NCBI GenBank assembly: GCA_934045905.1
Contig: OW203762.1
Coordinates: 9,949,647-10,013,646 of the forward strand
Length of the DNA stretch: 64,000 nt
Reading direction: 5' to 3'
Source of the DNA: Leuctra nigra
Taxonomy: Eukaryota > Arthropoda > Insecta > Plecoptera > Leuctridae
This document shows positions 1,433-47,557 of this stretch, one piece after another; within the stretch, counting starts at the first letter, position 1; the number at the start of each line of letters is the position of its first letter. Position numbers and translations under genes: made by a program. The notes below the pieces were generated by a model that was not told the DNA's origin, did not search any database, and saw only the letters and a list, made by a program, of their open reading frames with translations.

Positions 1433-1646
1433 ATCGTCGTATCCGCAGATTTTTCCAGCCACGCGTGAGACTAATAATGGGCCGTTCTGACCCCACAAGT
1501 CTCCACGAAAATTGGAGCGAAGATCTTCAACGCACAAGTCTGCAGCCATCTTGCCGACGCCAGTGGACGACATGGACAAAGCACCGCTGGCGACTGTATC
1601 ATTGCTCTCCTCACAAGCCCAGTTCCTGCCCAATTCAACCAGGGAT
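1433..1646 (-). CDS. Alpha-1,4-glycosyltransferase, second exon (C-terminal catalytic part)
   Basis: 214-nt exon on the minus strand encoding 71 residues, SLVELGRNWACEESND...GDLWGQNGPLLVSRV...KICGYDD. The segments VASGALSM, ADLCVEDLRSNFRGDLWG and NGPLLVSRV match the alpha-1,4-glycosyltransferase conserved region of the lactosylceramide 4-alpha-galactosyltransferase / alpha4-GT family (Golgi enzymes that add Gal or GalNAc to glycosphingolipids). The acceptor ttctctgtgcag precedes the exon, and its first base completes the AG|A arginine codon begun by the exon ending at 9891. The exon ends in phase 0 at GAT followed by a consensus gtaaga donor. The family normally has some 60-80 further residues, which should lie left of this window. 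The joined exons lack any frameshift. Confidence 0.85.
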
Positions 1647-2867
1647 CTGCACAGAGAATCATTGCCAATACTTGGCAGTGGCAAAGCCTTAAGAATGATC
1701 TAGACCATGTAACCACGACCACCTACGTCAAACTTCAGTATGCCCTGGGATTCATCAAAACGAAGGAGAGCATTTTCTATTTTCAAGCATTTTCCGAAGA
1801 ATTCCATTTTATTACATAGGAAAAGCTGGGTACTCGAATATCTATCTCCTGTGACTAGCTGATACAATAATTCGGTTTGTATACGGAACTTTTCGTAAGC
1901 GATCGCTCTCAATGTTTCATATTATGACATTTTAATAATGAAAATGCATGACTGAACCATGACTGAACTAAAAAGAGGGTGATAAATACTGCGTGAATAC
2001 TGGTGATAACTGCGACCACGAGACACATTGTCCATTCGGACAGGACTATTCAGCGCCTAAAGGCAAATGCCAGAACGAAGGGCCAAACATTTTAGCTGTA
2101 TACCCCTTAGAAATGGTGGTGTGGGGAGGGAAGGGGGGCAGAAAGTTGACGTTCGTTCAGCCGACAGCGGTCGGGCTGTTTACAAACTGCTGGGCCAGGC
2201 GGGCCGGCCCAAGTACAATAGAGCAGGTAACAAGAGTTAATGAGGCGTGCACTTGGGATTTTTATTGCTATACGTATGAATTTTACCCCGTTTTTTTATC
2301 ATTCTTTATAATAGCAAATGTTTTCATACGTATCACAAGTAATTGTGCGCCTCAAAAAAGAACGAGAGAAATCGGACCATAATTGTGGAAGTTATTAAAA
2401 CGGATCAACGGATCACGGATCAAAAACGTCTGCTAAAATATGTTCGATTTTCTTAAATAAAAAACCACCCTGCATCACTCCTATTTATCAATTATTATAA
2501 TTCGTCCACCCAATGAATACTTCACGTTTCATTAAAGTTTACTTTTTGTAATGCAGTAAATTAATTCCAGGTAGAAAGGGTAGGGCGAGGACAATAGAGT
2601 GTGAGGGTCGCGCTGGCCGAAACCCGGAGCATCCTGACTGGCGCTTGACTTTCACCTGCACAATGGGGCCTAAAGGACGTGCAAAATAGGAATTTCAAAC
2701 TAAAATTATTTTTTTCGCTGTTGAACCTTCCTGTCCGAATGGACTGTAGTTATATTTAAATGCACAATACGAAAATATTAAACACATACCTACCTGCAAA
2801 TTCCTTATTTTTCACAACGAATATTTTCATATCATTTACAAAGCACATAACACAACTCTAAAATTAA
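1647..2867. other. Glycosyltransferase intron, no gene recognised
   Basis: Start of the intron as read leftwards to the acceptor. A 129-codon open frame at 1993-2382 shows no recognisable family. The motif tccattcggacaggac near 2032 recurs inverted near 2735, suggesting remnants of an inverted-repeat element, but I could not trace full termini. Confidence 0.4.
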
Positions 2868-3283
2868 TTCAACGAGCAGACCATTTGAGATTAAGGACCA
2901 TGCAAAATATGAGTTTGATTAAATTTATCGAAGACCATTTTCATTTTTCAACTTATCAGGATATTTTTATTTAAATTTTAACCAATTAATGGATTTAAAA
3001 AAAATAGGGTCTGCAAACAGAAAAGGTTGTCTCTACAATATGTGCAAAAATTCAGCTCGATCGAAGAAAACTGTGACCTGGGGTGGGATTACATAAAATG
3101 ATAACTTTCTTGTCACGGTGACAAGCTTCTCACTCAATGCTATTCACGGCCTTCTAGGGACTTGTCACCGTGACAAGGAAGTTATCATTTTATGTGATCG
3201 CACCCCTGTACTGCCTCACCGAATAAAAGAGGTCCGTGCCAAGGGAGCCAAAAGGAGCCGCTCGCTTCGCTCGCTTAACAAGG
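2868..3283 (+). repeat. Repeat family A, 3' portion (copy 2 in window)
   Basis: Matches the distal third of the copy at 23100-23345 and ends in the typical gctcgcttcgctcgctt motif, directly abutting the first unit of the 70-bp minisatellite. It is split by a small foldback element at 3080-3206. Confidence 0.7.
3080..3206. mobile_element. 127-bp MITE with about 46-bp inverted repeats
   Basis: Termini ggggtgggattacataaaat and the inverted atgtgatcgcacccc enclose arms ending in cttgtcacggtgacaag. The central spacer is about 35 bp. It sits inside repeat A. No clear target duplication was found. Confidence 0.65.
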
Positions 3284-3552
3284 AAGTCCAGGTCTAGGTA
3301 TGTAACCGAATACATTCACAGAGCCAGGGGTAAATATTACCTCATTACAATGAAGTCAGGTCCAGGTATGTTGCCTCATGCATTCACAGAGCCAGGGCTA
3401 AATATTACCTGATTACAATGAAGTCCAGGTCCATGTTTGTTGCATCATACATTCACAGAACCAGGGGCATAATATTACCTTATTACAATGAAGTCCAGGT
3501 CCAGGTATGTTGCCTCATACATTCGCAGAGTTAGGGGCTCAATATTTCTTCA

Positions 3553-4572
3553 TAATAATGGATGAGATGCTGATTAAAGTAGAAGGAGGTAATAATGAAG
3601 AGGACTCTAGAACGTTAGTGTATGCAGATGATATTATGGTTTGGGGAGACAATTATGAAATGGTGCAAAGAAAGATTGACAGGTGGAGTGAAGTTACAGA
3701 AGAGTTTGGATTGAAAATCAGCAAGGAAAAGAGTGAAACTCTTAATATGAGGAAGGCAAAGAAAAATAAGAAGAGAGAAAGGATTATGTTGAAAGGTGTG
3801 GAGTTAGAAGAAAAAAGGGAATTTAAATATCTCGGAAGTATTATCTCAGAAGACGCAAAAATTAGTAGAGAAGTGGAAGGAAGAGTCAAGAAGGCAGAGA
3901 GCTTCTACCAAACTGTGAGAAAGTTATTATGGGACGAAGATTTTCCGATGTGCTGTAAGTTAATCATCTATCAGATGTATTTCATCCCTATACTAACTTA
4001 CGGAGCAGTAACTTGGACAATCGGAGGAAAAGAAGAAACTCAAATACAATCAACAGAGATGAAATTTCTTAGAAGTATGAAGCGAGTAACAAAGTTAGAT
4101 AAGATCAGAAGTACTAAGATAAGAAAGGAATTGGGAGTAGAAAGATTGTGCTTTAAGATTGGTAGAGGGCGTTTGAAATGGTTTGGGAATATGAAAAGGA
4201 TGGACAATAAGAGAATACCTCGGAAAGAGTTTGAAAAGTTGGAGCAGGGAAAGAGGCAAAGAGGGAGACCGAGAGCGAGGTGGCGTGGTTTAGTTGAAGA
4301 AGATGTCGAAGTGAGAGGCGAGCAATGGGAGATGGTGAATAAAGATGAATGGTGGTTAAATAGAGACTTGTGGCGAGCATTGGTAGATAGAGAAGAAGAT
4401 GAAGTGGAAGAAGAGGAAGAGGAAGTGGAAGAAGATGAAGCTAACGCAGAAGTTGAAGAAACGTCAGGCCCGGCCAGCCGGTTTCAATAATAGTTTAATA
4501 GGCTCTTGCATTTGTGTGGGTAGGTTTTCCTACCTCCTTTACCCATTGTATTTTGGAAAAGGATAATAAAGA
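3553..4572 (+). pseudogene. 5'-truncated LINE: reverse transcriptase C-terminal half
   Basis: Open frame to 4490 with the RT active-site motif LVYADDIMVWGD, then the thumb/connection region typical of RTE-like LINEs (FKYLGSIIS, ILTYGAVTWT, LKWFGNMKRM, RQRGRPRARW) and an acidic Glu-rich tail ending SGPASRFQ. The first ~15 codons of the open frame come from the minisatellite, so it is a chimera and not a gene. The 3' end is a short ATT microsatellite tail (gattattattattac). Everything upstream of RT motif C is missing, which fits 5' truncation during target-primed reverse transcription. It belongs to the same family as the fragment at 7946-8776. Confidence 0.85.
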
Positions 4573-7500
4573 TTATTATTATTACAATGAAGTCCAGGTC
4601 CAGGTATGTTCCCCCATACATTCACAGAGCGAGGGGCTAAATATTACCTCATTACAATGAAGTCCAGGTCCAGGTATGTTCCCCCGTATTTCCACAGAGC
4701 CAGGGGCTAAATATTACCTCATTACAATGACGTCCAGGTCCAGGTATGTTCCCCCATACATTCACAGAGCGAGGGGCTAAATATTACCTGGTTACAATGA
4801 AGTCCAGGTCCATGTTTGTTGCATCATACATTCACAGAACCAGGGGCATAATATTACCTCATTACAATGAAGTCCAGGTCCAGGTATGTTGCATCATACA
4901 TTCACAGAGAGAGGTGCTAAATATTACCTCATTACAATGAAGTCCAGGTCCAGGTATGTTCCCCCATACATTCACAGAGCGAGGGGCTAAATATTACCTG
5001 GTTACAATGAAGTCCAGGTCCATGTTTGTTGCATCATACATTCACAGAACCAGGGGCATAATATTACCTTATTACAATGAAGTCCAGGTCCAGGTATGTT
5101 GCCTCATACATTCGCAGAGTTAGGGGCTCAATATTTCTTCATTACAATGACGTCCAGGTCAAGGTAAGTTCCCCCATACATTCACAGAGCCAGGGGCTAA
5201 ATATTACCTCATTACAATGAAGTCCAGGTCCAGGTATGTTCGCCCATACATTCACAGAGCGAGGGGCTAAATATTACCTCATTACAATGAAGTTCAGGTC
5301 CAGGTATGTTTCCCCGTATTTCCACAGAGCCAGGGCTAAATATTACCTGATTACAATGAAGTCCAGGTCCAGATATGTTCCCCCATACAATCACAGAGCG
5401 AGGGGCTATATATTACCTCATTACAATGAAGTCCAGGTCCAGGTATGTTCCCCCATACATTCACAGAGCGAGGGGCTAAATATTACCTCATTACAATGAA
5501 GTCCAGGTCCAGGTATGTTTCCCCGTATTTCCACAGAGCCAGGGGCTAAATATAACCTCATTACAATGAAGTCCAGGTCCAGGTATGTTTCCCCGTATTT
5601 CCACAGAGCCAGGGCTAAATATTACCTGATTACAATGAAGTCCAGGTCCAGATATGTTCCCCCATACAATCACAGAGCGAGGGGCTATATATTACCTCAT
5701 TACAATAAAGTCCAGGTCCAGGTATGTTCCCCCATACATTCACAGAGCGAGGGGCTAAATATTACCTCATTACAATGAAGTCCAGGTCCAGGTATGTTCG
5801 CCCATACATTCACAGAGCGAGGGGCTAAATATTACCTCATTACAATGAAGTCCAGGTCCATGTTTGTTGCCTCATACATTCACAGAGCGAGGGGCTAAAT
5901 ATTACCTCATTACAATGAAGTCCAGGTCCAGGTATGTTCCCCCATACATTCACAGAGCCAGGGACTATTAATATTACCTCATTACAATGAAGTCAAGGTC
6001 CATGTATATTGCCTCATACATTCACAGAGCGAGGGGCTAAATATTACCTCATTACAATGACGTCCAGGTCCAGGTATGTTTACCCATACATTCACAGAGC
6101 GAGGTGCTAAATATTACCTCATTACAATGCAGTCCAGGTCCAGGTATGTTCCCCCATACATTCACAGAGCGAGGGGCCTAATATTACCTCATTACAATGA
6201 AGTCCAGGTCTAGGTATGTAACCGAATACATTCACAGAGCCAGGGGTAAATATTACCTCATTACAATGAAGTCCAGGTCCAGGTATGTTGCCTCATACAT
6301 TCACAGAGCCAGGGCTAAATATTACCTCATTACAATGAAGTCCAGGTCCAGGTATGTTCCCCCATACATTCACAGAGCCAGGGGCTAAATATTACCTCAT
6401 TTCAATGAAGTCCAGGTCCAGGTATGTTGCCTCATACATTCACAGAGCGAGGGGCTAAATATTACCTCATTACAATGAAGTCCAGGTCCAGGTATGTTCC
6501 CCCATACATTCACAGAGCGAGGGGCTAAATATAACCTCATTACAATGAAGTCCAGGTCCAGGTATGTTCCCCCATACATTCACAGAGCAAGGGGCTAAAT
6601 ATTACCTCATTACAATGAAGTCCAGGTCCAGGTATGTTCCCCCATACATTCACAGAGCGAGGGGCTAAATATTACCTCATTACAATGAAGTCCAGGTCCA
6701 GGTATGTTCGCCCATACATTCACAGAGCGAGGGGCTAAATATTACCTCATTACAATGAAGTCCAGGTCCAGGTATGTTGCCTCATACATTCACAGAGCGA
6801 GGAGCTAAATATTACCTCATTGCAATGACGTCCAGGTCCAGGTATGTTCCCTCATACATTCACAGAACCAGGGGCATAATATTACCTCATTACAATGAAG
6901 TTTAGGTCCAGGTATGTTCCCCCATACATTCACAGAACCAGGGGCATAATATTACCTCATTACAATTAAGTCCAGGTCCAGGTATGTTGCCCCATACATT
7001 CACAGAACCAGGGCTAAATATTACCTCATTACAATGAAGTCCAGGTCCAGGTATGTTGCCTCATACATTCACAGAGCGGGGGGCTAAATATTACCTCATT
7101 ACAATGAAGTCTAGGTCCAGGTATGTTCCCCTATACATTCACAGAGCGAGGGGCTAAATATTACCTCATTACAATGACGTCCAGGTCCAGGTATGTTGCC
7201 TTATACATTCACAGAGCGAGAGGCTAAATATTACCTCATTACAATGAAGTCCAGGTCCAGGTATGTTGCCTCATACATTCACAGAGCCAGGGGCATAATA
7301 TTACCTCATTACAATGAAGTCCAGGTCCAGGTATGTTGCCCCATACATTCACAGAGCCAGGGCTAAATATTACCTCATTACAATGAAGTCCAGGTCCAGG
7401 TATGTTCCCCCATACATTCACAGAGCGAGGGGCTAAATATTACCTCATTACAATGAAGTCCAGGTCCAGGTATGTTGCCTCATACATTCACAGAGCGAGG

Positions 7501-7945
7501 GGCTAAATATTACCTCATTACAATGACGTCCAGGTCCAGGTTTGTTCCCCCATACATTCACAGAACCAGGGGCATAATATTACCTCATTACAATGAAGTC
7601 CAGGTCCAGGTATGTTCCCCCATACATTCACAGAACCAGGGGCATAATATTACCTCATTACAATGAAGTCCAGGTCCAGGTATGTTGCCCCATACATTCA
7701 CAGAGCCAGGACTAAATATTACCTCATTACAATGAAGTCCAGGTCCAGGTATGTTGCCTCATACATTCACAGAGCCAGGGCTAAATATTACCTGATTACA
7801 ATGAAGTCTAGGTCCAGGTATGTTGCCTCATACATTCGCAGAGTTAGGGGATAAATATAACCTCATTACAATGAAGTCCAGGTCCAGGTATGTTCCCCCA
7901 TACATTCACAGAGCGAGGGGCTAAATATTACCTCATTACAATGAG

Positions 7946-8776
7946 GTAATTTACCTCATTGAAAATAAAGCGAAGTAATGTCCATGGAAAGAAAGAAGCT
8001 TCAATACGGTCATGCTAGGATCAAGCTTGGAGAGGGATGGTTGAAGGAGGTGGAAGAGTTTAAGTATCTGGGTAGCCTGCTCACCAACAAGGCTAAAGTA
8101 GACAGAGAAATACAAGAAATAAGAAAGAAAGCAGAGGCTTTTTATCAAGCAGTGAGGAAGTTGCTGTGGAATGAGAAGTTTCCACAAGTCTGCAAGATCA
8201 TTATGTACAAGATGTATTTCCTGCCAATTCTAACATATGGGGCAGTGACGTGGTCAGCAGGTGGAAAGGAAATGAACCAGCTACAGGCAGCTGAGATGAA
8301 GTTTTTGAGGAGTGTGAAGGGGGTGACAAGAATGGATAGGATCCGAAGTAGGAAGATAAGAAAAGAGCTTGGGGTTGAAAGATTGGTGTTCAAGCTGGGC
8401 AGAGAGAGGCTTAGGTGGTTCGGCCACATGAAGAGGATGGGAACCGATAGAGTGCCAAGGCGGGTGTTTGAAGCGGCTACAGGGGGAACTCGGAGATTGG
8501 GGCGACCAAGAGACAGGGGGATTGGACTGATCAAGGAGGATATGTTGGAGAGAGGAGGAAGGTGGAGTGAGTTGGAGGCTGAGAGACAGTGGGAGGACAG
8601 AACATGGTGGAAGGAATTTGTGGAACAATTAGAAGTGGAAGAAGAAGAGGAGGAAGAAGAGGAGGAAACGCCAGGCGTGGCCAGCCGGTTTCCAGGAGTC
8701 CTGCGGCCCTAGTGTTCGTGGGAATACCCACTTCCTGACCCATTAAATTGGAACCAGGGATGGATTATTATTATTA
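7946..8776 (+). pseudogene. 5'-truncated LINE: reverse transcriptase 3' fragment
   Basis: Open frame 7978-8712 begins after the YADD region and covers FKYLGSLLTNKAKVDREI, FLPILTYGAVTWSAGGKE, MKFLRSVKGVTRMDRIRS, RLRWFGHMKRMG and RRLGRPRDRGIG, ending in a Glu-rich tail and TPGVASRFPG. It is homologous to the fragment at 3553-4572 but clearly diverged, so it is a separate insertion. It also ends in an ATT tail inside the minisatellite. No catalytic residues remain. Confidence 0.85.
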
Positions 8777-9890
8777 CAATGAAGTCCAGGTCCAGGTATG
8801 TTCCCCCATACATTCACAGAGCCAGGGGCTTAATATTACCTCATTACAATGAAGTCCAGGTCCAGGTATGTTCCCCCACACATTCACAGAGCGAGGGGCT
8901 AAATATTACCTCATTACAATGAAGTCCAGGTCCAGGTATGTTCGCCCATACATTCACAGAGCGAGGGGCTAAATAATACCTCATTACAATGAAGTCCAGG
9001 TCCAGGTATGTTCCCCCATACATTCACAGAGCGAGGGGCTAAATATTACCTCATTACAATGACGTCCAGGTCCAGGTATGTTCGCCCATACATTCACAGA
9101 GCGAGGGGCTAAATATTACCTCATTACAATGACGTCCAGGTCCAGGTATGTTCCCCCATACATTCACAGAGCGAGGGGCTAAATATTACCTCATTACAAT
9201 GAAGTCCAGGTCCAGGTATGTTGCCTCATACATTCACAGAGCCAGGGACTATTAATATTACCTCATTACAATGAAGTCCAGGTCCAGGTATGTTCCCCCA
9301 TACATTCACAGAGCGAGGGGCTAAATATTACCTCATTACAATGAAGTCCAGGTCCAGGTATGTTCCCCCATACATTCACAGAACCAGGGGCATAATATTA
9401 CCTCATTACAATGAAGTCCAGGTCCAGGTATGTTCCCCCATACATTCACAGAACCAGGGGCATAATATTACCTCATTACAATGAAGTCCAGGTCCAGGTA
9501 TGTTGCATCATACATTCACAGAGCGAGGGGCTAAATATTACCTCATTACAATGAAGTCCAGGTCCAGGTATGTTCCCCCATACATTCACAGAGCCAGGGC
9601 TAAATATTACCTGGTTACAATGAAGTCCAGGTCCATGTTTGTTGCATCATACATTCACAGAACCAGGGGCATAATATTACCTCATTACAATGAAGTCCAG
9701 GTCCAGGTATGTTGCCTCATACATTCGCAGAGTTAGGGGCTCAATATTTCTTCATTACAATGACGTCCAGGTCCAGGTAAGTTCCCCCATACATTCACAG
9801 AGCCAGGGGCTAAATATTACCTCATTACAATGAAGTCCAGGTCCAGGTATGTTCGCCCATACATTCACAGAGCGAGGGGCTAAATATTAC

Positions 9891-10693
9891 CTCATTACAA
9901 TGAAGTCCAGGTCCAGGTATGTTCCCCCGTATTTCCACAGAGCCAGGAATCTGATGGCGTCACTTAAGTGTGGTTCCGGCCATTGGGATCTATGAATCTT
10001 CTTGGATTCAAACAACCCTTGCAGTGGAGTCCCGTTGAATACGCTGGTTAAACTCTCCTTCCAGACGTGTACGTTGGGAAGCTGGAGAACCTCCTGGACA
10101 AGCGGCGTGGATCGCTGGAGGCTGTCTGGACCTAGAGGACACGTGTAGAACACGTAGATGCTGGTGTTGGAATGAGTTCGAGCGGCGGATTCGATCGCGC
10201 ACAACGATTGCGCATAGAGAACGATCTCGGTTGTGTTGGAGATGTTCCGAAGAAAGCAAGTTGTTTCCACGAAGAAGATGTTCTCTTCGCCTCGCTTAGG
10301 TGTCTTCATTGAGAGTGGGGTATTTTTTTCCTTGTCTTTTATCTTCGGAATCGCGGAAGTGTGATTCTTTCCTGGAATATCAATTTTTTCCCTTTTTGGT
10401 TTCTTCATTGAGTGGGCGGTATTTTTTTCCTTGTCTTTTATCTTCGGAATCGCGGAAGTGTGATTCTTTCCTGAAATATCAATTTTTTCCCTTTTTGGTT
10501 TCTTCATTGAGAGGGCGGTATTTGTTTCCTTGTCCTTTTGCTTCGGAATCATGGAAGTGTTAATCTTTTCTGGCATGTAGATTTTTCCGGTAGTGATTAC
10601 TTCATCTTTGTAAAATATGTTCATACAATAATATGTAAAAATAAAAAGAACTACACACAAGCTCAACAATATGTTTCTTTTGATACATTTCAA
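9891..10693 (-). CDS. Alpha-1,4-glycosyltransferase, N-terminal exon (TM anchor, stem, DXD)
   Basis: Minus-strand open exon encoding a type II Golgi enzyme. A basic start (KCIKRN) leads into a membrane anchor ILLSLCVVLFIFTYY. Then comes a Lys-rich stem of three 33-residue repeats (KKPKREKID..GKNHTSAIPKIKDKEKNT). The catalytic domain opens with NIFFVETTC, CAIESAARTHSNTSIYVF and SDAIRFLALWKYGGTYLDLDFIVM. The LDLD is the DXD metal/nucleotide-sugar motif of the alpha-1,4-galactosyl/GalNAc-transferase family. The exon ends ATGAG|GTAATA at 9891, in phase with the exon at 1646. The open frame starts with TTG at 10693 and no in-frame ATG precedes the membrane anchor. An in-frame TAG at 10700-10702 lies within the end of element X, so the original start is either in an upstream exon or was lost to the insertion. 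The first exon-internal ATG falls within or after the anchor. Confidence 0.88.
10307..10603 (-). repeat. 99-bp tandem repeat in the glycosyltransferase stem
   Basis: Three in-frame 99-bp (33-codon) units encode the Lys/Glu-rich stem region. The two inner units are almost identical and the membrane-proximal one is diverged. As the unit is a multiple of three, length changes would alter the stem without breaking the frame. Confidence 0.85.
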
Positions 10694-10697
10694 CGGA

Positions 10698-11989
10698 ATC
10701 TAGTGGAGCGGTCGCTCCACCCAGCCAAGTCGTACTGTACACTCACACTCACTCAACATACCGTAAATGCCTAATAAACTGAGGAGCAGACCAAACACTT
10801 TTACTGTAAGCATCAAAGTGGCATTTTCGGCCTACTGGATCTTAAAATTGGAAAATCTCACATTGTTGCGAAATATCTTAATTTCGAGCTGACAACATAT
10901 ACCAAATTTTGGAATAACAAGTTATGCCATTTGCGAGCTAGACGGCTGTGAAAACAGTGAAATTACACCCCTTTTTAAAAGGTATCTTCTTCTTCTTCTT
11001 CTTCTTCCGCTTCTTCTTCAGATATCAAGGAACGTTGCTATCACCGCCACAGCCTAAACGGCTGAACCGATCGATTTGACATTTTTACCACATGTGCACT
11101 TTTGGCGTCTAAGGTGCCTTTTTATAAAACCAACCGGAAGCCGCCATTTTGAAACCGGAAGTGACGTCATATCTCGAAAATGGCTAGACCGATTGGAATG
11201 AAAATAGCGCCAAATGATTCAGACGGTCATCTATATGGAATATTAAAAGATGAATTAGAAATGTACTATTACCGAAACCGGAAATGACATCATCAACATG
11301 GAAAACACCCTGAAACCCCTCTTCATGCAATAAAAATACATATTTTGAAGGCTTATAATGATATATAACATTTATAGAAACAAATTCTAGGTGATATTAT
11401 TTTTAGCCGCCATTTTGAAACCCGCATGTGATGCCATATCTCGAAAACGGCTGGACCGATTGAAACGAAACTTTTGCTATACTTTGTAACATATTATTTA
11501 TAGCATTAACACAGTAACAAGCACAACTTTTCTTAGCAACCAAATCACAAAATCTTATTTTTTAAAAGAATTATAATCTTTGGTGCCACAATATGTTACA
11601 AATTGTAATAATAAACTGAAAAAAGGAGTGATATCACCATAAAAAACACTCCGTGTAAAAATACCAGCCAAGTCTCTTCAATTAAAAAAAATAGAAGAAA
11701 TCTAAAAATTCAGCACTGAAAAGTAGTGATATCAAATAATTGGCCAAGTCAAAACTTTTCAAAAAATACTTGGCGCATCGTTTTTTTTAGGACATGTGTA
11801 GATGAGTACATTTCATTTCCTGCCTACTTCTATACTATTTATATGCACGATGCGCCAAGTATTTTTTGAAAAGTTTTGACTTGGCCAATTTTTTGATATC
11901 ACTACTTTTCAGTGCTGAATTTTTAGATTTCTTCTATTTTTTTTAATTGAAGAGACTTGGCTGGTATTTTTACACGGAGTGTTTTTTAT
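10698..11989 (-). mobile_element. Element X, copy 1 (internally deleted, 1.29 kb)
   Basis: Read on the minus strand it begins with the roughly 350-bp foldback (11641-11989; arms with taccagccaagtc and cttggcgcatcg), continues with modules containing gacgtcacttccggtttcaaaatggcggc-like sequence, and ends at gacttggctgg, the stem-loop ggagcgaccgctcc and CTAGAT. It lies directly against the glycosyltransferase N-terminal exon. It is non-coding and shorter than copies 2 and 3 (about 1.85 kb) through loss of internal modules. Confidence 0.8.
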
Positions 11990-36083: not shown

Positions 36084-39000
36084 ACCCCAGCACAAATTCT
36101 GGGACCATGCGCAAAAATGTGTGCCCAATTTGTGCTACAGCCCTGTAAATTTTTAGAATTTGTGCTCTGCTAGTTTCCGAGATATCAACCCTTGAAAGTG
36201 GGGGGGGGGGTCAACTTCACGCTCCCCCCCCCCCCCACCCCAGCACAAATTCTGGGACCCGGCGCAAATATTTGTGCTCAATTTGTGCTACAACCCTGCA
36301 AATTTTTAGAATTTGTGCTCTGCTAGTTGTCGAGATATCAACCCCTAAAGGGGGTGTGGCTCCCCCCCCCCAAATGTCTTCAAAAATTCTGGGACCCGGC
36401 GCAAAAATTTGTGCCTAATTTTTGCTGCAACCTTGCCAAATTTTAAAATTTGTGCTCTGCTAGTTTCCGAGATTTCAACCCCTAAAGATGGGGGTGGGGG
36501 GTCAACACGCTCCCCCACCCCCCCATGTCAGCACAAATACTGGGACCCGGCGCAAAAATTGGGTAACAGTACCCAGCTGTCTCTAACTGTCTCCAACTGT
36601 CCGCAACAATATCCAACTGTCTCCAACTGTCCGCAACTGTCATCAACTGTCCCCATCTGTGTCCAACTGTCCCCAACTGTTTTTAACTGTCCCCAACTGT
36701 CAACAACTGTCAGCAACTGTCTCCAACTGTCTCCGCTACTATCTTGAACTGTCTCCAACTGTACCCAACTGTACTCAATTGTCTCTAGATGTCTCCAACT
36801 TTCCCCTACTGTCCCCAACTGAACCCAACTGTCTCCAACTGTCCGCAACTGTCCTCAACTGTACCCAATTGTATCCAACTGTCTCAAATGTCGCCCCAAC
36901 TGTCTCCAACTGTCTCCAACTGTCTGCAACTGTATCCAACTGTCTCTAATGTCTTCCCAACTGTCCCCCAACTGCCTACAACTGTCTAAACCTGTCTCCA
37001 ACTGTCCTNNNNNNNNNNNNNNNNNNNNNNNNNNNNNNNNNNNNNNNNNNNNNNNNNNNNNNNNNNNNNNNNNNNNNNNNNNNNNNNNNNNNNNNNNNNN
37101 NNNNNNNNNNNNNNNNNNNNNNNNNNNNNNNNNNNNNNNNNNNNNNNNNNNNNNNNNNNNNNNNNNNNNNNNNNNNNNNNNNNNNNNNNNNNNNNNNNNN
37201 NNNNNNNNATCATATAAAAGAGGATGTAAAGTGGTACTTAGATCTTCACGTAGATCAAGAAGTTGGATGCCAACATGGTCTAGCATGCGACGTGTTCTAT
37301 GAATCGCATCACGAAGGATAGCTCCACTAGCTCGTTTCAAAATCCTATTAGTTACGTAGTTAACTGTGTGGTGTTTTAAACGGACGAAGTTTGGAATAAT
37401 ATCTTGATCACGACAGCGACACAAGAACACCAAATCACACAGTAACTTACTTTTTCTGCACATGAGTTTCTCTAAAATCTTCGTAGCTTGAAATATTTCC
37501 TCCCCATAAAGGTTTATGATATTAATTTGTAAATTTTCACGGGTGTAATACATTATTAATAAGTTTCTTAGGCTTTATACCGTGTAAATCACTTTTATTC
37601 CTCTCCCAACAGTTTCGACCACATAACAGCGATCATTTTCAAGGGACTACAAATTCATAGAAATAATTTGACAGCTAATAGAAAAATTGAACAAAGTCAT
37701 AGCATACTTGAAACAGAAAAAGTCAAAATCAGAGTCTACAAATGATAATACACTATGCAAAATAACAATTGTCATCAATAACTTAGCATGAACAAAATCA
37801 ATATTTTCAAGTATCAAGTATCACTAGACGATCTGCTAGCGGAAGCGTATCAACGTCACGTGCTTGGCTTCGTGTCACTCTTCGATTGACTTGTGTATCA
37901 GATGAACCTCTATTGTCCTCTTGAGTCTGCACTTGGAGGAGAACTAGACGATCTGATAAGGGTAGTGTATCAAGGTCACGTGCTTGGCTTCGTGTTACTC
38001 GACGATTGTCTTCGTTATCAGAAGACAAACCATTGACATTTAAGTCAAGTCCTAGTCTTCGATTGCCTCGCTGATTGTCTGTGTTTACAGCCGCATCACC
38101 ACTGCACAAGTTTTCATCCACCCGATCAAGGCCGCTAGATTTTGATTGAACTGAGATGATCGAATTTGATAAAGCAGGTAACCACGTTATTGGCAATCTT
38201 TTAGCGTCATCTCTTTTGTTTAGGTTGTCAGGTCTTTTAACTATTTCGATCGCTTCTCTATAAATACGCGGATAGAAATTCATTTCACAAGCTAGAGTTT
38301 TCGCTTCATCGAAATTAATCAAGTGTTGAGAACCTCGGACATGTTGTGCCAGAGCAGATTTCGGATCATCTTGAAAAACTGCCCTCTTATGTTCTTCTAC
38401 TCTGTTTGATATGCGTCTATTAGTCTGACCCACATATACTCGATCACAAGAGCCACATGGGATTTCATAAACGCCTTGCGATTCTAAGGGAATATGATCT
38501 TTCACACCTCTCAATAACGAACTTATCTTGTTGTCAGAGTGGAACGTCGTAGCAATGCCTTGCTTTCTCAGGATTCTAGCTATTTTATCAGAAGTTCCTT
38601 GAACATAAGGTAAGTATGCAGTTGGAAGTTTCTCCTTCTCGGAATCTTCTTTGGGTTCATGTTTGAACGCCTGATTGATAATATAATCAGAGTAACCGTT
38701 GGACCTCAGAGTACTCCTCAGAAACTTCATTTCTTCATGTAAATGATTCTCATCAGCTAATCTTTTAGATCGAGTGGAAAGGGAAAGAGCCACAGACTTC
38801 AATTGCGCAGGATGGTGGTGTGATTTAGCATTTAAATACCTGTGTGTATTAGTGGGCTTGCGATAGACTGTATGACCAAAAGAGTTATCATCATTCCGAA
38901 TTATGAGAAGATCCAAAAACGGAAGTTGTTTGTTCTCCTCAATCTCCATAGTGAAACGAATCTTCTCGTGTTGATTATTGAGATGATCAAGGAATGTTGA

Positions 39001-42000
39001 AAGAGCCTCACGTCCATGTGTCCAAATGACTAAGACATCATCAATATACCTTAACCATAGATCAGGTTTCATATGAGAGGATGCAATGGCCTTCAGCTCG
39101 AAATCCTCCATAAACAGATTGGCAACAACTGGGGATAAAGAGGACCCCATGGGTGCTCCCTCAATTTGTTTATAACGTTGTCCGTCAAACATGAAAAATG
39201 TATTAGATAGACAGTGTGAAGCTAAATCTAAAATGTGTTTTGGAGGATTATGATTTATCTTGATGATGTCGAGTGTTTCCTGGATAGGAACTTTAGTGTA
39301 AAGTGAGACAACATCGAAGCTCACTAGAATACTTTCAGGTGGAAATACATGACTCTTCAAAATATCAACTAAATGATCAGCGTTCTGGACATAAGACGCA
39401 GCTGAAGTTGCATACGGCTGTAACTGTTTACCCAAGAACCGAGCAAGAGGTTGAAGAGGAGAATCTCTAGAACTCACGATCGGTCTTAAAGGTGCTCCAA
39501 ACTTATGTATTTTGGGGAGGCCAAAAAATTTCGGAAATCTCGAAGACTTCTCTCTCGGAATAAGCGAGACCTTTATGTCTTCTTCAATAGGTGATGCTAT
39601 AATTTTGGCTTTAGTCGTTTTCTCCAGGTATGTAATCGGATCAGTCAAGTATGGTATGTAGGCCGGATCTTGTAGCAGAATGTTTACCTTGTTATTGTAT
39701 TCTGCTGTATTCATTATTACCGTAGCATTCCCCTTGTCGGCATGAAGAACAACAATGTCTTTGTTATCTCGTAACGACTTGAGAGCTTGATTTTCTTCAT
39801 AAGTAATATTTCTCTTGGGTAATCTCGCTTTCTGAAGGATTTGACAAGCCTCAATACGAATATTCTCTGCAGTCTCTTCTGGTAGACGATGAATAGCAGC
39901 TTCTACCGAACTTATGATGGACTCAACAGGCAAACGATTCGGTACAACAGCAAAATTCAAACCTCTTGATAATACATTCATAGCAGCATCGGATAAAGGA
40001 ATATCGGAAAGATTGTGTACAATCGTAACTGATTGAGATGTCTGCGCACTATGGACGATGGCTGGTCTCTGTCTGGCAACAAGCCGTTCAAACTTACGTA
40101 TATGTCGCTCGGTATTAATCATGGAGTTGCACTCAGCTCTTTGGAAAGAACTTCTATCGATAGTATCATATAAAAGAGGATGTAAAGTGGTACTTAGATC
40201 TTCACGTAGATCAAGAAGTTGGATGCCAACATGGTCTAGCATGCGACGTGTTCTATGAATCGCATCACGAAGGATAGCTCCACTAGCTCGTTTCAAAATC
40301 CTATTAGTTACGTAGTTAACTGTGTGGTGTTTTAAACGGACGAAGTTTGGAATAATATCTTGATCACGACAGCGACACAAGAACACCAAATCACACAGTA
40401 ACTTACTTTTTCTGCACATGAGTTTCTCTAAAATCTTCGTAGCTTGAAATATTTCCTCCCCATAAAGGTTTATGATATTAATTTGTAAATTTTCACGGGT
40501 GTAATACATTATTAATAAGTTTCTTAGGCTTTATACCGTGTAAATCACTTTTATTCCTCTCCCAACAGTTTCGACCACATAACAGCGATCATTTTCAAGG
40601 GACTACAAATTCATAGAAATAATTTGACAGCTAATAGAAAAATTGAACAAAGTCATAGCATACTTGAAACAGAAAAAGTCAAAATCAGAGTCTACAAATG
40701 ATAATACACTATGCAAAATAACAATTGTCATCAATAACTTAGCATGAACAAAATCAATATTTTCAAGTATCAAGTATCACTAGACGATCTGCTAGCGGAA
40801 GCGTATCAACGTCACGTGCTTGGCTTCGTGTCACTCTTCGATTGACTTGTGTATCAGATGAACCTCTATTGTCCTCTTGAGTCTGCACTTGGAGGAGAAC
40901 TAGACGATCTGATAAGGGTAGTGTATCAAGGTCACGTGCTTGGCTTCGTGTTACTCGACGATTGTCTTCGTTATCAGAAGACAAACCATTGACATTTAAG
41001 TCAAGTCCTAGTCTTCGATTGCCTCGCTGATTGTCTGTGTTTACAGCCGCATCACCACTGCACAAGTTTTCATCCAACCGATCAAGGCCGCTAGATTTTG
41101 ATTGAACTGAGATGATCGAATTTGATAAAGCAGGTAACCACGTTATTGGCAATCTTTTAGCGTTTAATCTTCGTTTGTCTTCTGATAACGAAGACAATCG
41201 TCGAGTAACACGAAGCCAAGCACGTGACCTTGATACACTACCCTTATCAGATCGTCTAGTTCTCCTCCAAGTGCAGACTCAAGAGGACAATAGAGGTTCA
41301 TCTGATACACAAGTCAATCGAAGAGTGACACGAAGCCAAGCACGTGACGTTGATACGCTTCCGCTAGCAGATCGTCTAGTGATACTTGATACTTGAAAAT
41401 ATTGATTTTGTTCATGCTAAGTTATTGATGACAATTGTTATTTTGCATAGTGTATTATCATTTGTAGACTCTGATTTTGACTTTTTCTGTTTCAAGTATG
41501 CTATGACTTTGTTCAATTTTTCTATTAGCTGTCAAATTATTTCTATGAATTTGTAGTCCCTTGAAAATGATCGCTGTTATGTGGTCGAAACTGTTGGGAG
41601 AGGAATAAAAGTGATTTACACGGTATAAAGCCTAAGAAACTTATTAATAATGTATTACACCCGTGAAAATTTACAAATTAATATCATAAACCTTTATGGG
41701 GAGGAAATATTTCAAGCTACGAAGATTTTAGAGAAACTCATGTGCAGAAAAAGTAAGTTACTGTGTGATTTGGTGTTCTTGTGTCGCTGTCGTGATCAAG
41801 ATATTATTCCAAACTTCGTCCGTTTAAAACACCACACAGTTAACTACGTAACTAATAGGATTTTGAAACGAGCTAGTGGAGCTATCCTTCGTGATGCGAT
41901 TCATAGAACACGTCGCATGCTAGACCATGTTGGCATCCAACTTCTTGATCTACGTGAAGATCTAAGTACCACTTTACATCCTCTTTTATATGATACTATC

Positions 42001-45000
42001 GATAGAAGTTCTTTCCAAAGAGCTGAGTGCAACTCCATGATTAATACCGAGCGACATATACGTAAGTTTGAACGGCTTGTTGCCAGACAGAGACCAGCCA
42101 TCGTCCATAGTGCGCAGACATCTCAATCAGTTACGATTGTACACAATCTTTCCGATATTCCTTTATCCGATGCTGCTATGAATGTATTATCAAGAGGTTT
42201 GAATTTTGCTGTTGTACCGAATCGTTTGCCTGTTGAGTCCATCATAAGTTCGGTAGAAGCTGCTATTCATCGTCTACCAGAAGAGACTGCAGAGAATATT
42301 CGTATTGAGGCTTGTCAAATCCTTCAGAAAGCGAGATTACCCAAGAGAAATATTACTTATGAAGAAAATCAAGCTCTCAAGTCGTTACGAGATAACAAAG
42401 ACATTGTTGTTCTTCATGCCGACAAGGGGAATGCTACGGTAATAATGAATACAGCAGAATACAATAACAAGGTAAACATTCTGCTACAAGATCCGGCCTA
42501 CATACCATACTTGACTGATCCGATTACATACCTGGAGAAAACGACTAAAGCCAAAATTATAGCATCACCTATTGAAGAAGACATAAAGGTCTCGCTTATT
42601 CCGAGAGAGAAGTCTTCGAGATTTCCGAAATTTTTTGGCCTCCCCAAAATACATAAGTTTGGAGCACCTTTAAGACCGATCGTGAGTTCTAGAGATTCTC
42701 CTCTTCAACCTCTTGCTCGGTTCTTGGGTAAACAGTTACAGCCGTATGCAACTTCAGCTGCGTCTTATGTCCAGAACGCTGATCATTTAGTTGATATTTT
42801 GAAGAGTCATGTATTTCCACCTGAAAGTATTCTAGTGAGCTTCGATGTTGTCTCACTTTACACTAAAGTTCCTATCCAGGAAACACTCGACATCATCAAG
42901 ATAAATCATAATCCTCCAAAACACATTTTAGATTTAGCTTCACACTGTCTATCTAATACATTTTTCATGTTTGACGGACAACGTTATAAACAAATTGAGG
43001 GAGCACCCATGGGGTCCTCTTTATCCCCAGTTGTTGCCAATCTGTTTATGGAGGATTTCGAGCTGAAGGCCATTGCATCCTCTCATATGAAACCTGATCT
43101 ATGGTTAAGGTATATTGATGATGTCTTAGTCATTTGGACACATGGACGTGAGGCTCTTTCAACATTCCTTGATCATCTCAATAATCAACACGAGAAGATT
43201 CGTTTCACTATGGAGATTGAGGAGAACAAACAACTTCCGTTTTTGGATCTTCTCATAATTCGGAATGATGATAACTCTTTTGGTCATACAGTCTATCGCA
43301 AGCCCACTAATACACACAGGTATTTAAATGCTAAATCACACCACCATCCTGCGCAATTGAAGTCTGTGGCTCTTTCCCTTTCCACTCGATCTAAAAGATT
43401 AGCTGATGAGAATCATTTACATGAAGAAATGAAGTTTCTGAGGAGTACTCTGAGGTCCAACGGTTACTCTGATTATATTATCAATCAGGCGTTCAAACAT
43501 GAACCCAAAGAAGATTCCGAGAAGGAGAAACTTCCAACTGCATACTTACCTTATGTTCAAGGAACTTCTGATAAAATAGCTAGAATCCTGAGAAAGCAAG
43601 GCATTGCTACGACGTTCCACTCTGACAACAAGATAAGTTCGTTATTGAGAGGTGTGAAAGATCATATTCCCTTAGAATCGCAAGGCGTTTATGAAATCCC
43701 ATGTGGCTCTTGTGATCGAGTATATGTGGGTCAGACTAATAGACGCATATCAAACAGAGTAGAAGAACATAAGAGGGCAGTTTTTCAAGATGATCCGAAA
43801 TCTGCTCTGGCACAACATGTCCGAGGTTCTCAACACTTGATTAATTTCGATGAAGCGAAAACTCTAGCTTGTGAAATGAATTTCTATCCGCGTATTTATA
43901 GAGAAGCGATCGAAATAGTTAAAAGACCTGACAACCTAAACAAAAGAGATGACGCTAAAAGATTGCCAATAACGTGGTTACCTGCTTTATCAAATTCGAT
44001 CATCTCAGTTCAATCAAAATCTAGCGGCCTTGATCGGGTGGATGAAAACTTGTGCAGTGGTGATGCGGCTGTAAACACAGACAATCAGCGAGGCAATCGA
44101 AGACTAGGACTTGACTTAAATGTCAATGGTTTGTCTTCTGATAACGAAGACAATCGTCGAGTAACACGAAGCCAAGCACGTGACCTTGATACACTACCCT
44201 TATCAGATCGTCTAGTTCTCCTCCAAGTGCAGACTCAAGAGGACAATAGAGGTTCATCTGATACACAAGTCAATCGAAGAGTGACACGAAGCCAAGCACG
44301 TGACGTTGATACGCTTCCGCTAGCAGATCGTCTAGTGATACTTGATACTTGAAAATATTGATTTTGTTCATGCTAAGTTATTGATGACAATTGTTATTTT
44401 GCATAGTGTATTATCATTTGTAGACTCTGATTTTGACTTTTTCTGTTTCAAGTATGCTATGACTTTGTTCAATTTTTCTATTAGCTGTCAAATTATTTCT
44501 ATGAATTTGTAGTCCCTTGAAAATGATCGCTGTTATGTGGTCGAAACTGTTGGGAGAGGAATAAAAGTGATTTACACGGTATAAAGCCTAAGAAACTTAT
44601 TAATAATGTATTACACCCGTGAAAATTTACAAATTAATATCATAAACCTTTATGGGGAGGAAATATTTCAAGCTACGAAGATTTTAGAGAAACTCATGTG
44701 CAGAAAAAGTAAGTTACTGTGTGATTTGGTGTTCTTGTGTCGCTGTCGTGATCAAGATATTATTCCAAACTTCGTCCGTTTAAAACACCACACAGTTAAC
44801 TACGTAACTAATAGGATTTTGAAACGAGCTAGTGGAGCTATCCTTCGTGATGCGATTCATAGAACACGTCGCATGCTAGACCATGTTGGCATCCAACTTC
44901 TTGATCTACGTGAAGATCTAAGTACCACTTTACATCCTCTTTTATATGATACTATCGATAGAAGTTCTTTCCAAAGAGCTGAGTGCAACTCCATGATTAA

Positions 45001-47557
45001 TACCGAGCGACATATACGTAAGTTTGAACGGCTTGTTGCCAGACAGAGACCAGCCATCGTCCATAGTGCGCAGACATCTCAATCAGTTACGATTGTACAC
45101 AATCTTTCCGATATTCCTTTATCCGATGCTGCTATGAATGTATTATCAAGAGGTTTGAATTTTGCTGTTGTACCGAATCGTTTGCCTGTTGAGTCCATCA
45201 TAAGTTCGGTAGAAGCTGCTATTCATCGTCTACCAGAAGAGACTGCAGAGAATATTCGTATTGAGGCTTGTCAAATCCTTCAGAAAGCGAGATTACCCAA
45301 GAGAAATATTACTTATGAAGAAAATCAAGCTCTCAAGTCGTTACGAGATAACAAAGACATTGTTGTTCTTCATGCCGACAAGGGGAATGCTACGGTAATA
45401 ATGAATACAGCAGAATACAATAACAAGGTAAACATTCTGCTACAAGATCCGGCCTACATACCATACTTGACTGATCCGATTACATACCTGGAGAAAACGA
45501 CTAAAGCCAAAATTATAGCATCACCTATTGAAGAAGACATAAAGGTCTCGCTTATTCCGAGAGAGAAGTCTTCGAGATTTCCGAAATTTTTTGGCCTCCC
45601 CAAAATACATAAGTTTGGAGCACCTTTAAGACCGATCGTGAGTTCTAGAGATTCTCCTCTTCAACCTCTTGCTCGGTTCTTGGGTAAACAGTTACAGCCG
45701 TATGCAACTTCAGCTGCGTCTTATGTCCAGAACGCTGATCATTTAGTTGATATTTTGAAGAGTCATGTATTTCCACCTGAAAGTATTCTAGTGAGCTTCG
45801 ATGTTGTCTCACTTTACACTAAAGTTCCTATCCAGGAAACACTCGACATCATCAAGATAAATCATAATCCTCCAAAACACATTTTAGATTTAGCTTCACA
45901 CTGTCTATCTAATACATTTTTCATGTTTGACGGACAACGTTATAAACAAATTGAGGGAGCACCCATGGGGTCCTCTTTATCCCCAGTTGTTGCCAATCTG
46001 TTTATGGAGGATTTCGAGCTGAAGGCCATTGCATCCTCTCATATGAAACCTGATCTATGGTTAAGGTATATTGATGATGTCTTAGTCATTTGGACACATG
46101 GACGTGAGGCTCTTTCAACATTCCTTGATCATCTCAATAATCAACACGAGAAGATTCGTTTCACTATGGAGATTGAGGAGAACAAACAACTTCCGTTTTT
46201 GGATCTTCTCATAATTCGGAATGATGATAACTCTTTTGGTCATACAGTCTATCGCAAGCCCACTAATACACACAGGTATTTAAATGCTAAATCACACCAC
46301 CATCCTGCGCAATTGAAGTCTGTGGCTCTTTCCCTTTCCACTCGATCTAAAAGATTAGCTGATGAGAATCATTTACATGAAGAAATGAAGTTTCTGAGGA
46401 GTACTCTGAGGTCCAACGGTTACTCTGATTATATTATCAATCAGGCGTTCAAACATGAACCCAAAGAAGATTCCGAGAAGGAGAAACTTCCAACTGCATA
46501 CTTACCTTATGTTCAAGGAACTTCTGATAAAATAGCTAGAATCCTGAGAAAGCAAGGCATTGCTACGACGTTCCACTCTGACAACAAGATAAGTTCGTTA
46601 TTGAGAGGTGTGAAAGATCATATTCCCTTAGAATCGCAAGGCGTTTATGAAATCCCATGTGGCTCTTGTGATCGAGTATATGTGGGTCAGACTAATAGAC
46701 GCATATCAAACAGAGTAGAAGAACATAAGAGGGCAGTTTTTCAAGATGATCCGAAATCTGCTCTGGCACAACATGTCCGAGGTTCTCAACACTTGATTAA
46801 TTTCGATGAAGCGAAAACTCTAGCTTGTGAAATGAATTTCTATCCGCGTATTTATAGAGAAGCGATCGAAATAGTTAAAAGACCTGACAACCTAAACAAA
46901 AGAGATGACGCTAAAAGATTGCCAATAACGTGGTTACCTGCTTTATCAAATTCGATCATCTCAGTTCAATCAAAATCTAGCGGCCTTGATCGGGTGGATG
47001 AAAACTTGTGCAGTGGTGATGCGGCTGTAAACACAGACAATCAGCGAAGCAATCGAAGACTAGGACTTGACTTAAATGTCAATGGTTTGTCTTCTGATAA
47101 CGAAGACAATCGTCGAGTAACACGAAGCCAAGCACGTGACCTTGATACACTACCCTTATCAGATCGTCTAGTTCTCCTCCAAGTGCAGACTCAAGAGGAC
47201 AATAGAGGTTCATCTGATACACAAGTCAATCGAAGAGTGACACGAAGCCAAGCACGTGACGTTGATACGCTTCCGCTAGCAGATCGTCTAGTGATACTTG
47301 ATACTTGAAAATATTGATTTTGTTCATGCTAAGTTATTGATGACAATTGTTATTTTGCATAGTGTATTATCATTTGTAGACTCTGATTTTGACTTTTTCT
47401 GTTTCAAGTATGCTATGACTTTGTTCAATTTTTCTATTAGCTGTCAAATTATTTCTATGAATTTGTAGTCCCTTGAAAATGATCGCTGTTATGTGGTCGA
47501 AACTGTTGGGAGAGGAATAAAAGTGATTTACACGGTATAAAGCCTAAGAAACTTATT

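Follow-up and report, generated by a model that had tools for sequence, protein, structure and literature searches.

Tandem duplications of exon–intron boundaries that resemble minisatellites, termed 'mirages', are described in amphioxus, having been reported earlier in its Adh3 gene (PMC3087553) and, in the available portions of the reports, extend to troponin C and, with imperfect repeats, to PGBD5 (PMC3902484). Their units measure 10–72 bp in Adh3 and 150–160 bp in the globin genes BflGb6 and BflGb9, and reverse transcription–polymerase chain reaction and Adh3 data suggest regular splicing (PMC3087553), which is also stated for the Adh and troponin C mirages (PMC3902484). Excerpts from two further reports describe internal repeats at human exon–intron boundaries (PMC2812944) and intronic minisatellites of Caenorhabditis elegans that are linked to complex splicing and are not exon copies (PMC4039745). 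In this study, a window of 64,000 nucleotides from the insect Leuctra nigra (assembly GCA_934045905.1, contig OW203762.1, positions 9,949,647–10,013,646 of the forward strand) was analyzed in one assembled haplotype; coordinates without another label are positions in this window. A 70-bp minisatellite in an intron of an A4GALT-like glycosyltransferase gene is a large further example of the mirage type of repeat, in an insect. No insect mirage was found among the matches listed in searches of an open-licence literature collection. The initial annotation knew of no described case with this arrangement, but as far as the available text of these papers goes, the mirages of Adh3, the globins, troponin C and PGBD5 in amphioxus are such precedents (PMC3087553, PMC3902484).

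The gene lies on the minus strand and has both features of an A4GALT-like enzyme, namely PF04488 with a DXD motif and PF04572. Its open exon at 9891..10699 (exon 1), the upstream boundary of which is uncertain, encodes the stem and, of the alpha-1,4-glycosyltransferase domain (PF04488, E=3.9e-10), the first half; the terminal coding sequence is ALWKYGGTYLDLDFIVM + AG, and the exon ends at 9891 in the true 5' splice site, GAG|GTAATA (9885..9893). The intron occupies 1647–9890 (8244 bases) and closes with the 3' splice site TGTGCAG|ATCCC (1647..1653). The next coding exon (exon 2, 1433..1646), which continues the reading frame of the first across a phase-2 junction (M R S L), holds the start of the Gb3_synth domain PF04572 (E=3.1e-9; a partial match to model positions 5–47 of 131) and ends in GACGAT|GTAAGA. 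At the protein level 25 relatives were retrieved, the best eight of which are insect proteins with 38–42% identity; five of these eight are named lactosylceramide 4-alpha-galactosyltransferase or -like.

The array (3282..9890, minus strand) contains 67 donor-like positions, and two fragments of long interspersed nuclear elements (LINEs) lie within it. Its unit corresponds to the source segment 9878..9947, which consists of the final 57 nt of the exon and the initial 13 nt of the intron. Arrays with a period of 70 were located by Tandem Repeats Finder at 3278–3560, 4581–7944 and 8773–9947. When the minus strand was scanned with a 23-nt junction core at a threshold of no more than seven mismatches, 68 positions matched, including the true donor (9891|9890). 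The 67 steps between these positions measure 70 (53 times), 69 (nine times), 72 (twice) and 68 (once), the remaining two, of 908 and 1099, being those that span the LINEs. Mean identity to the exon57+intron13 reference was 0.891 (range 0.80–1.00) in 65 of the 67 units, with the LINE-cut units 16 and 64 left out of the unit identity figures; the mean pairwise identity among units was 0.906. The 9-mer of the true donor recurs unchanged at 51 of the 67 decoy positions, while GT is kept at 64 and lost at three. Unit 63 (4635..4704, minus strand; donor 4648|4647, LALWKYGGTYLDLDFIVMR) is identical to the exon/intron junction over all 70 columns. The composition proposed in the initial annotation, an exon end together with its splice donor, is thus borne out by the mean identity of 0.891 over 65 units. 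Other details require correction: the tandem array stands, with 67 donor positions rather than about 69 copies; the span given for it, 3284..9960, does hold the array but also takes in the exon end itself (9891–9960); a donor copy is present in most units, as an exact 9-mer or at least as GT, but not in the three that have lost GT; and the array does not fill the intron, as it covers 6609 of the 8244 bases, approximately 1.86 kb of which is LINE.

The order of the units records how the array grew. In 61 of 65 units the TGTGGAAATAC stretch departs from the exon by the same four changes, and the exon form is retained in units 50, 51, 54 and 63. Exon-type unit 54 and units 55–58 form a block (4998..5333, minus strand) that repeats the exon end followed by units 1–4: units 55–58 match the exon-adjacent units 1–4 at 99.3%, which ranks first of 1384 four-unit block pairs (blocks touching the LINE-cut units 16 and 64 were left out), and the homology of the block with the exon starts at the unit joint. 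Judging from this pattern, the real exon end itself took part in an unequal exchange with an internal unit, and the expansion from the exon–intron junction by exchange that had been put forward in the initial annotation gains support from the unit order and the top-ranking block. Conversion could be an alternative route to the block copy. Units 65–66, which follow exon-type unit 63 and a LINE, match units 3–4 at 98.6% each, suggesting that the block is present a third time, with the loss of one unit. An exchange in the opposite direction, from the array into the exon, would be harmful because 57 of 65 units carry an in-frame TGA at the tryptophan codon.

The source of the repeat was sought in the whole genome. 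The best unit in this search reached E=4.1e-27, and chance is therefore excluded as a cause of the similarity between unit and exon. A query with the exon-type junction returned 71 matches, 69 of which lie within the exon and array of this gene; the other two, C8:4890356-4890427 (89%) and C6:2031013-2031077 (80%), are both exon ends of paralogs. The 70-bp repeat was not found at unrelated loci in the whole genome with this exon-type query, the only one used. The repeat counts are lower bounds, absence elsewhere holds within the limits of this one search, and the exclusion of a dispersed, very diverged form elsewhere in the genome is not quite complete.

Protein searches revealed eight further family members. 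Five of them have exons 1 and 2 on either side of this intron position, with introns of approximately 646 (C8), 913 (C4:16.41 Mb), 4319 (C9), 650 (C7) and 1401 bases (C6:38.7 Mb); the end points in C7 are approximate as the protein match overran the exon end. A tandem-repeat search of these five introns found no 70-bp array, the sole repeat being a two-copy 128-bp repeat in C9. The intron is missing from the C6:2.03 Mb and C4:19.67 Mb paralogs, which read through. In the C10 paralog exon 1 ends at the same position and is followed by a 9-bp repeat of 4.8 copies; exon 2 was not found within the 9.9 kb examined. The closest paralog, C8 (L009), has an identical donor (GAG|GTAATATTG / GAG|GTAATATT) and a 646-bp intron without the array. 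Because five paralogs share the intron position without the array, the intron and the exon end are judged from this comparison to be old and the 70-bp array to be specific to this copy among the family members seen. Intron gain by tandem duplication was rejected, as five of the eight paralogs have this intron between exons 1 and 2. The sequence comparisons likewise confirm the exon as the source of the repeat, since the protein motif at the exon end is conserved in homologues and paralogs, the paralog introns lack the array and no other repeat locus appeared in the one search. The opposite derivation, in which the exon acquired its end from a genomic satellite, found nothing in its favour and is hardly conceivable against the same three points, even with repeat counts that are lower bounds, and the preference of the initial annotation for the exon over a satellite of unrelated loci is upheld by matches to the exon-type query that comprise only this exon with its array and two paralog exon ends.

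Both interruptions of the array are on the plus strand. The fragment at 3553..4580 (approximate limits) is a LINE 3' fragment containing the end of a reverse transcriptase (RVT_1, E=3.6e-9). The fragment at 7945..8772 (approximate limits) is a LINE-like 3' end with an open reading frame that is similar by eye to that of the other fragment and had no Pfam match. Both terminate at an identical position in the unit, ATTATTATT followed by ACAATGAAG, which suggests that a target sequence guides LINE insertion into the 70-bp unit. As a separate observation, seven unit junctions (9611, 7792, 5626, 5347, 4998, 4788 and 3409) read CAG|GTAATA, in which a weak acceptor is fused to a donor in a manner resembling recursive splice sites.

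These data are most readily combined in the following mechanism, to which a probability of about 0.7 is assigned. A segment that spans the donor of an old phase-2 intron and the end of the exon before it would have been duplicated, leaving the CCTGGCTCTGTG stretch at what is now the unit joint. Unequal exchange would then have multiplied it, both among the units and between them and the real exon end; the latter would have served as a recombination partner and as the source of the exon-type copies in the array interior, and LINE fragments would have been inserted into the array. In the simplest reading the spliceosome would use the donor next to the exon and splice the array out as ordinary intron sequence, in keeping with the regular splicing reported for the mirages of lancelets. 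We infer the founding duplication, normal splicing and the near-neutrality of the array, which would make this mirage-type minisatellite a by-product with a mild cost at most.

Several observations weigh against this interpretation, both at the splice sites and in the gene copy itself. Computed pairing with U1 is stronger for the seven decoys with CAG|GTAATA than for the true donor (−8.2 to −8.4 versus −6.7 kcal/mol), the nearest of these decoys being 280 nt downstream of it; the values are plain duplex energies with the 5' end of U1 and not a trained splice-site score. In the 6609-base array, 62 GT sites have an energy of −6.7 kcal/mol or lower, compared with five in the remaining 1635 intron bases and 0, 1, 2, 1 and 1 in the five paralog introns. 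A crude scan for 3' splice sites was made at three cut-offs of the pyrimidine count in 12 positions. At 9/12 it gave 13 sites, nine in the LINEs and none in the units, and missed the true acceptor; at 8/12 it gave 24 sites, 13 in the LINEs and 11, including the true acceptor, in the rest, again with none in the units. At 7/12 there were 50 sites (19 LINE, 21 rest and 10 unit), seven of the ten in units being the CAG|GTAATA junctions. The 13 of 24 sites that lie in the LINEs could form pseudo-exons with downstream unit donors. It may be that the donors and the LINE 3'-like sites attract U1 and U2, so that the intron is excised slowly or not at all and the output of the gene is lowered or regulated, much as intron detention in human OGT is attributed to decoy exons that carry several weak 5' and 3' sites, according to the portion of that report available (PMC12017769). 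Use of a later donor contiguous with the exon would retain GTAA... and give ...FIVMR*, a stop that precedes the second half of the enzyme and would probably result in mRNA decay. This effect on gene output is nevertheless unlikely: the units contain no 3'-like site at the two stricter cut-offs (0/24 and 0/13, compared with 10/50 at the loosest), normal splicing is reported for the lancelet mirages in the available text (PMC3087553, PMC3902484), and the donor columns show no special conservation. Their mean conservation is 0.971 versus 0.939 elsewhere in the unit, and 23 of 70 nine-column windows, including that of the donor itself, reach the conservation of the donor window, so that selection on the decoy donors was rejected. 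Protein diversification through simple use of later donors was rejected on account of the immediate stop (MR*), and the choice among unit donors envisaged in the initial annotation as a source of protein variety falls with it. Slightly less probable again is a broader scheme in which the exon and the intronic satellite form one recombining family: the real exon end would go on supplying copies to the intron by unequal exchange, the array, with in-frame stops in 57 of 65 units, would be a lasting source of knock-out conversions, and its length would tune intron removal as a decoy. This scheme invokes 64 GT-bearing donors and 3' sites supplied by the LINEs; if it were true, array length would act as a heritable control of how much enzyme is made.

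The remaining objections concern whether this copy of the gene is intact. Relative to the C8 paralog L009, approximately 1.3 kb of partly repetitive sequence has been inserted (10700..11987) between ATGAATAT (near 11988) and ATTCCG (10699). A stop lies just upstream of the open frame, and the first in-frame Met falls at the end of a hydrophobic stretch that by eye is a membrane anchor. The insertion casts doubt on the start codon, and the copy may be non-functional. Furthermore, exon 3 of this copy was not found genome-wide, although it was found for all eight paralogs. The gene copy may be decaying, with an array that expanded since splicing no longer matters, an account that is compatible with the anatomy described above and is a real, if clearly lesser, possibility. 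The missing exon 3 proves nothing, as the 5000 bases adjoining the window read N and in C8 less than 1 kb separates exon 3 from exon 2; exon 3 of this copy may well be within those bases, and its absence was set aside as evidence for a pseudogene. Exons 1 and 2 have an open frame of approximately 340 codons and intact splice sites, and splicing of an upstream exon to CACTAG|ATTCCG is possible. A comparison of 202 codons between this copy and C8 gives a ratio of nonsynonymous to synonymous substitution rates (dN/dS) of 0.26 (dS 0.47, dN 0.12), with 0.21 in exon 1 and 0.35 in exon 2, which probably reflects for the most part the period before the array arose. Misassembly of tandem arrays is common, and a short array might have been inflated by the assembler; such an artefact is very improbable here, as the units differ (mean pairwise identity 0.906), their order is non-uniform, two LINE fragments interrupt the array and no N occurs within it. 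Growth by exchange with the real exon, followed by normal splicing, remains the preferred explanation.

Other repeats were noted in the gene family and in the window. The stem-coding part of the exon (10299–10573) contains a 99-bp repeat (33 codons) in 2.8 copies, and the paralogs L021 (165 bp, 3.3 copies) and L024 (42 bp, 6.1 copies) have repeats just upstream of the conserved domain; the units of all three stem repeats are multiples of three. In the C8 paralog a 92-bp tandem array at L009:2801-3167 consists of four copies of the last 27–28 or so codons, the stop and the first bases of the 3' untranslated region, and is a second instance of tandem amplification of an exon end in this glycosyltransferase family. 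A 139-bp array at L009:8683-9901 (8.8 copies, 99% matches) extends beyond the stretch examined. Elsewhere in the window, three nearly identical open frames of 907 amino acids, at 37807–40530 (−), 41629–44352 (+) and 44585–47308 (+), stand in inverted and tandem arrangement and are, by motif, presumably Penelope-type elements. A 10-bp repeat array (CCAACTGTCT) at 36573–37006 runs into a run of N at 37009–37208.

The locus provides a natural test in which the spliceosome would choose one donor before dozens of identical ones within 7 kb. Its paralogs are built-in controls, and its sequence keeps a visible record of how a coding exon exchanged with its own satellite.

Compared with intron gain by tandem duplication, the process is alike in that a duplication over an exon–intron boundary copies splice signals, and differs in that here an old intron shared with paralogs grew and no new intron is evident. 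A human minisatellite is said to have been described by Turri et al. in 1995 as containing multiple splice donor sites for one transcript, the gene reportedly being 6-16/IFI6; to judge by the title of that paper, it resembles the present array in supplying a single transcript with many 5' splice sites. With the decoy exons of human OGT, as presented in the available part of that report, the array shares extra intronic 5' splice sites and a poison outcome if they are used, but its units have no convincing 3' splice site and their decoy role is putative (PMC12017769). The closest resemblance is to the mirages of amphioxus. The unit of exon57+intron13 adjoins the true boundary and is present in 67 copies, splice signals recur in many units, derivation from the host gene is indicated by the exon-type query and the block copy points to unequal exchange. 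As far as the accessible text on amphioxus shows, the 3' boundary of an exon is duplicated both here and in BflGb9, and concerted turnover is common to both systems. The differences, within the same text, are that splicing was examined in the amphioxus mirages whereas the array of L. nigra is described at the sequence level, that the true exon end was returned into the interior of the L. nigra array, and that 67 copies stand against six and three units in two BflGb6 haplotypes. The array of L. nigra thus places an exon-boundary minisatellite outside the lancelets, at a copy number far above the lancelet counts that were available.
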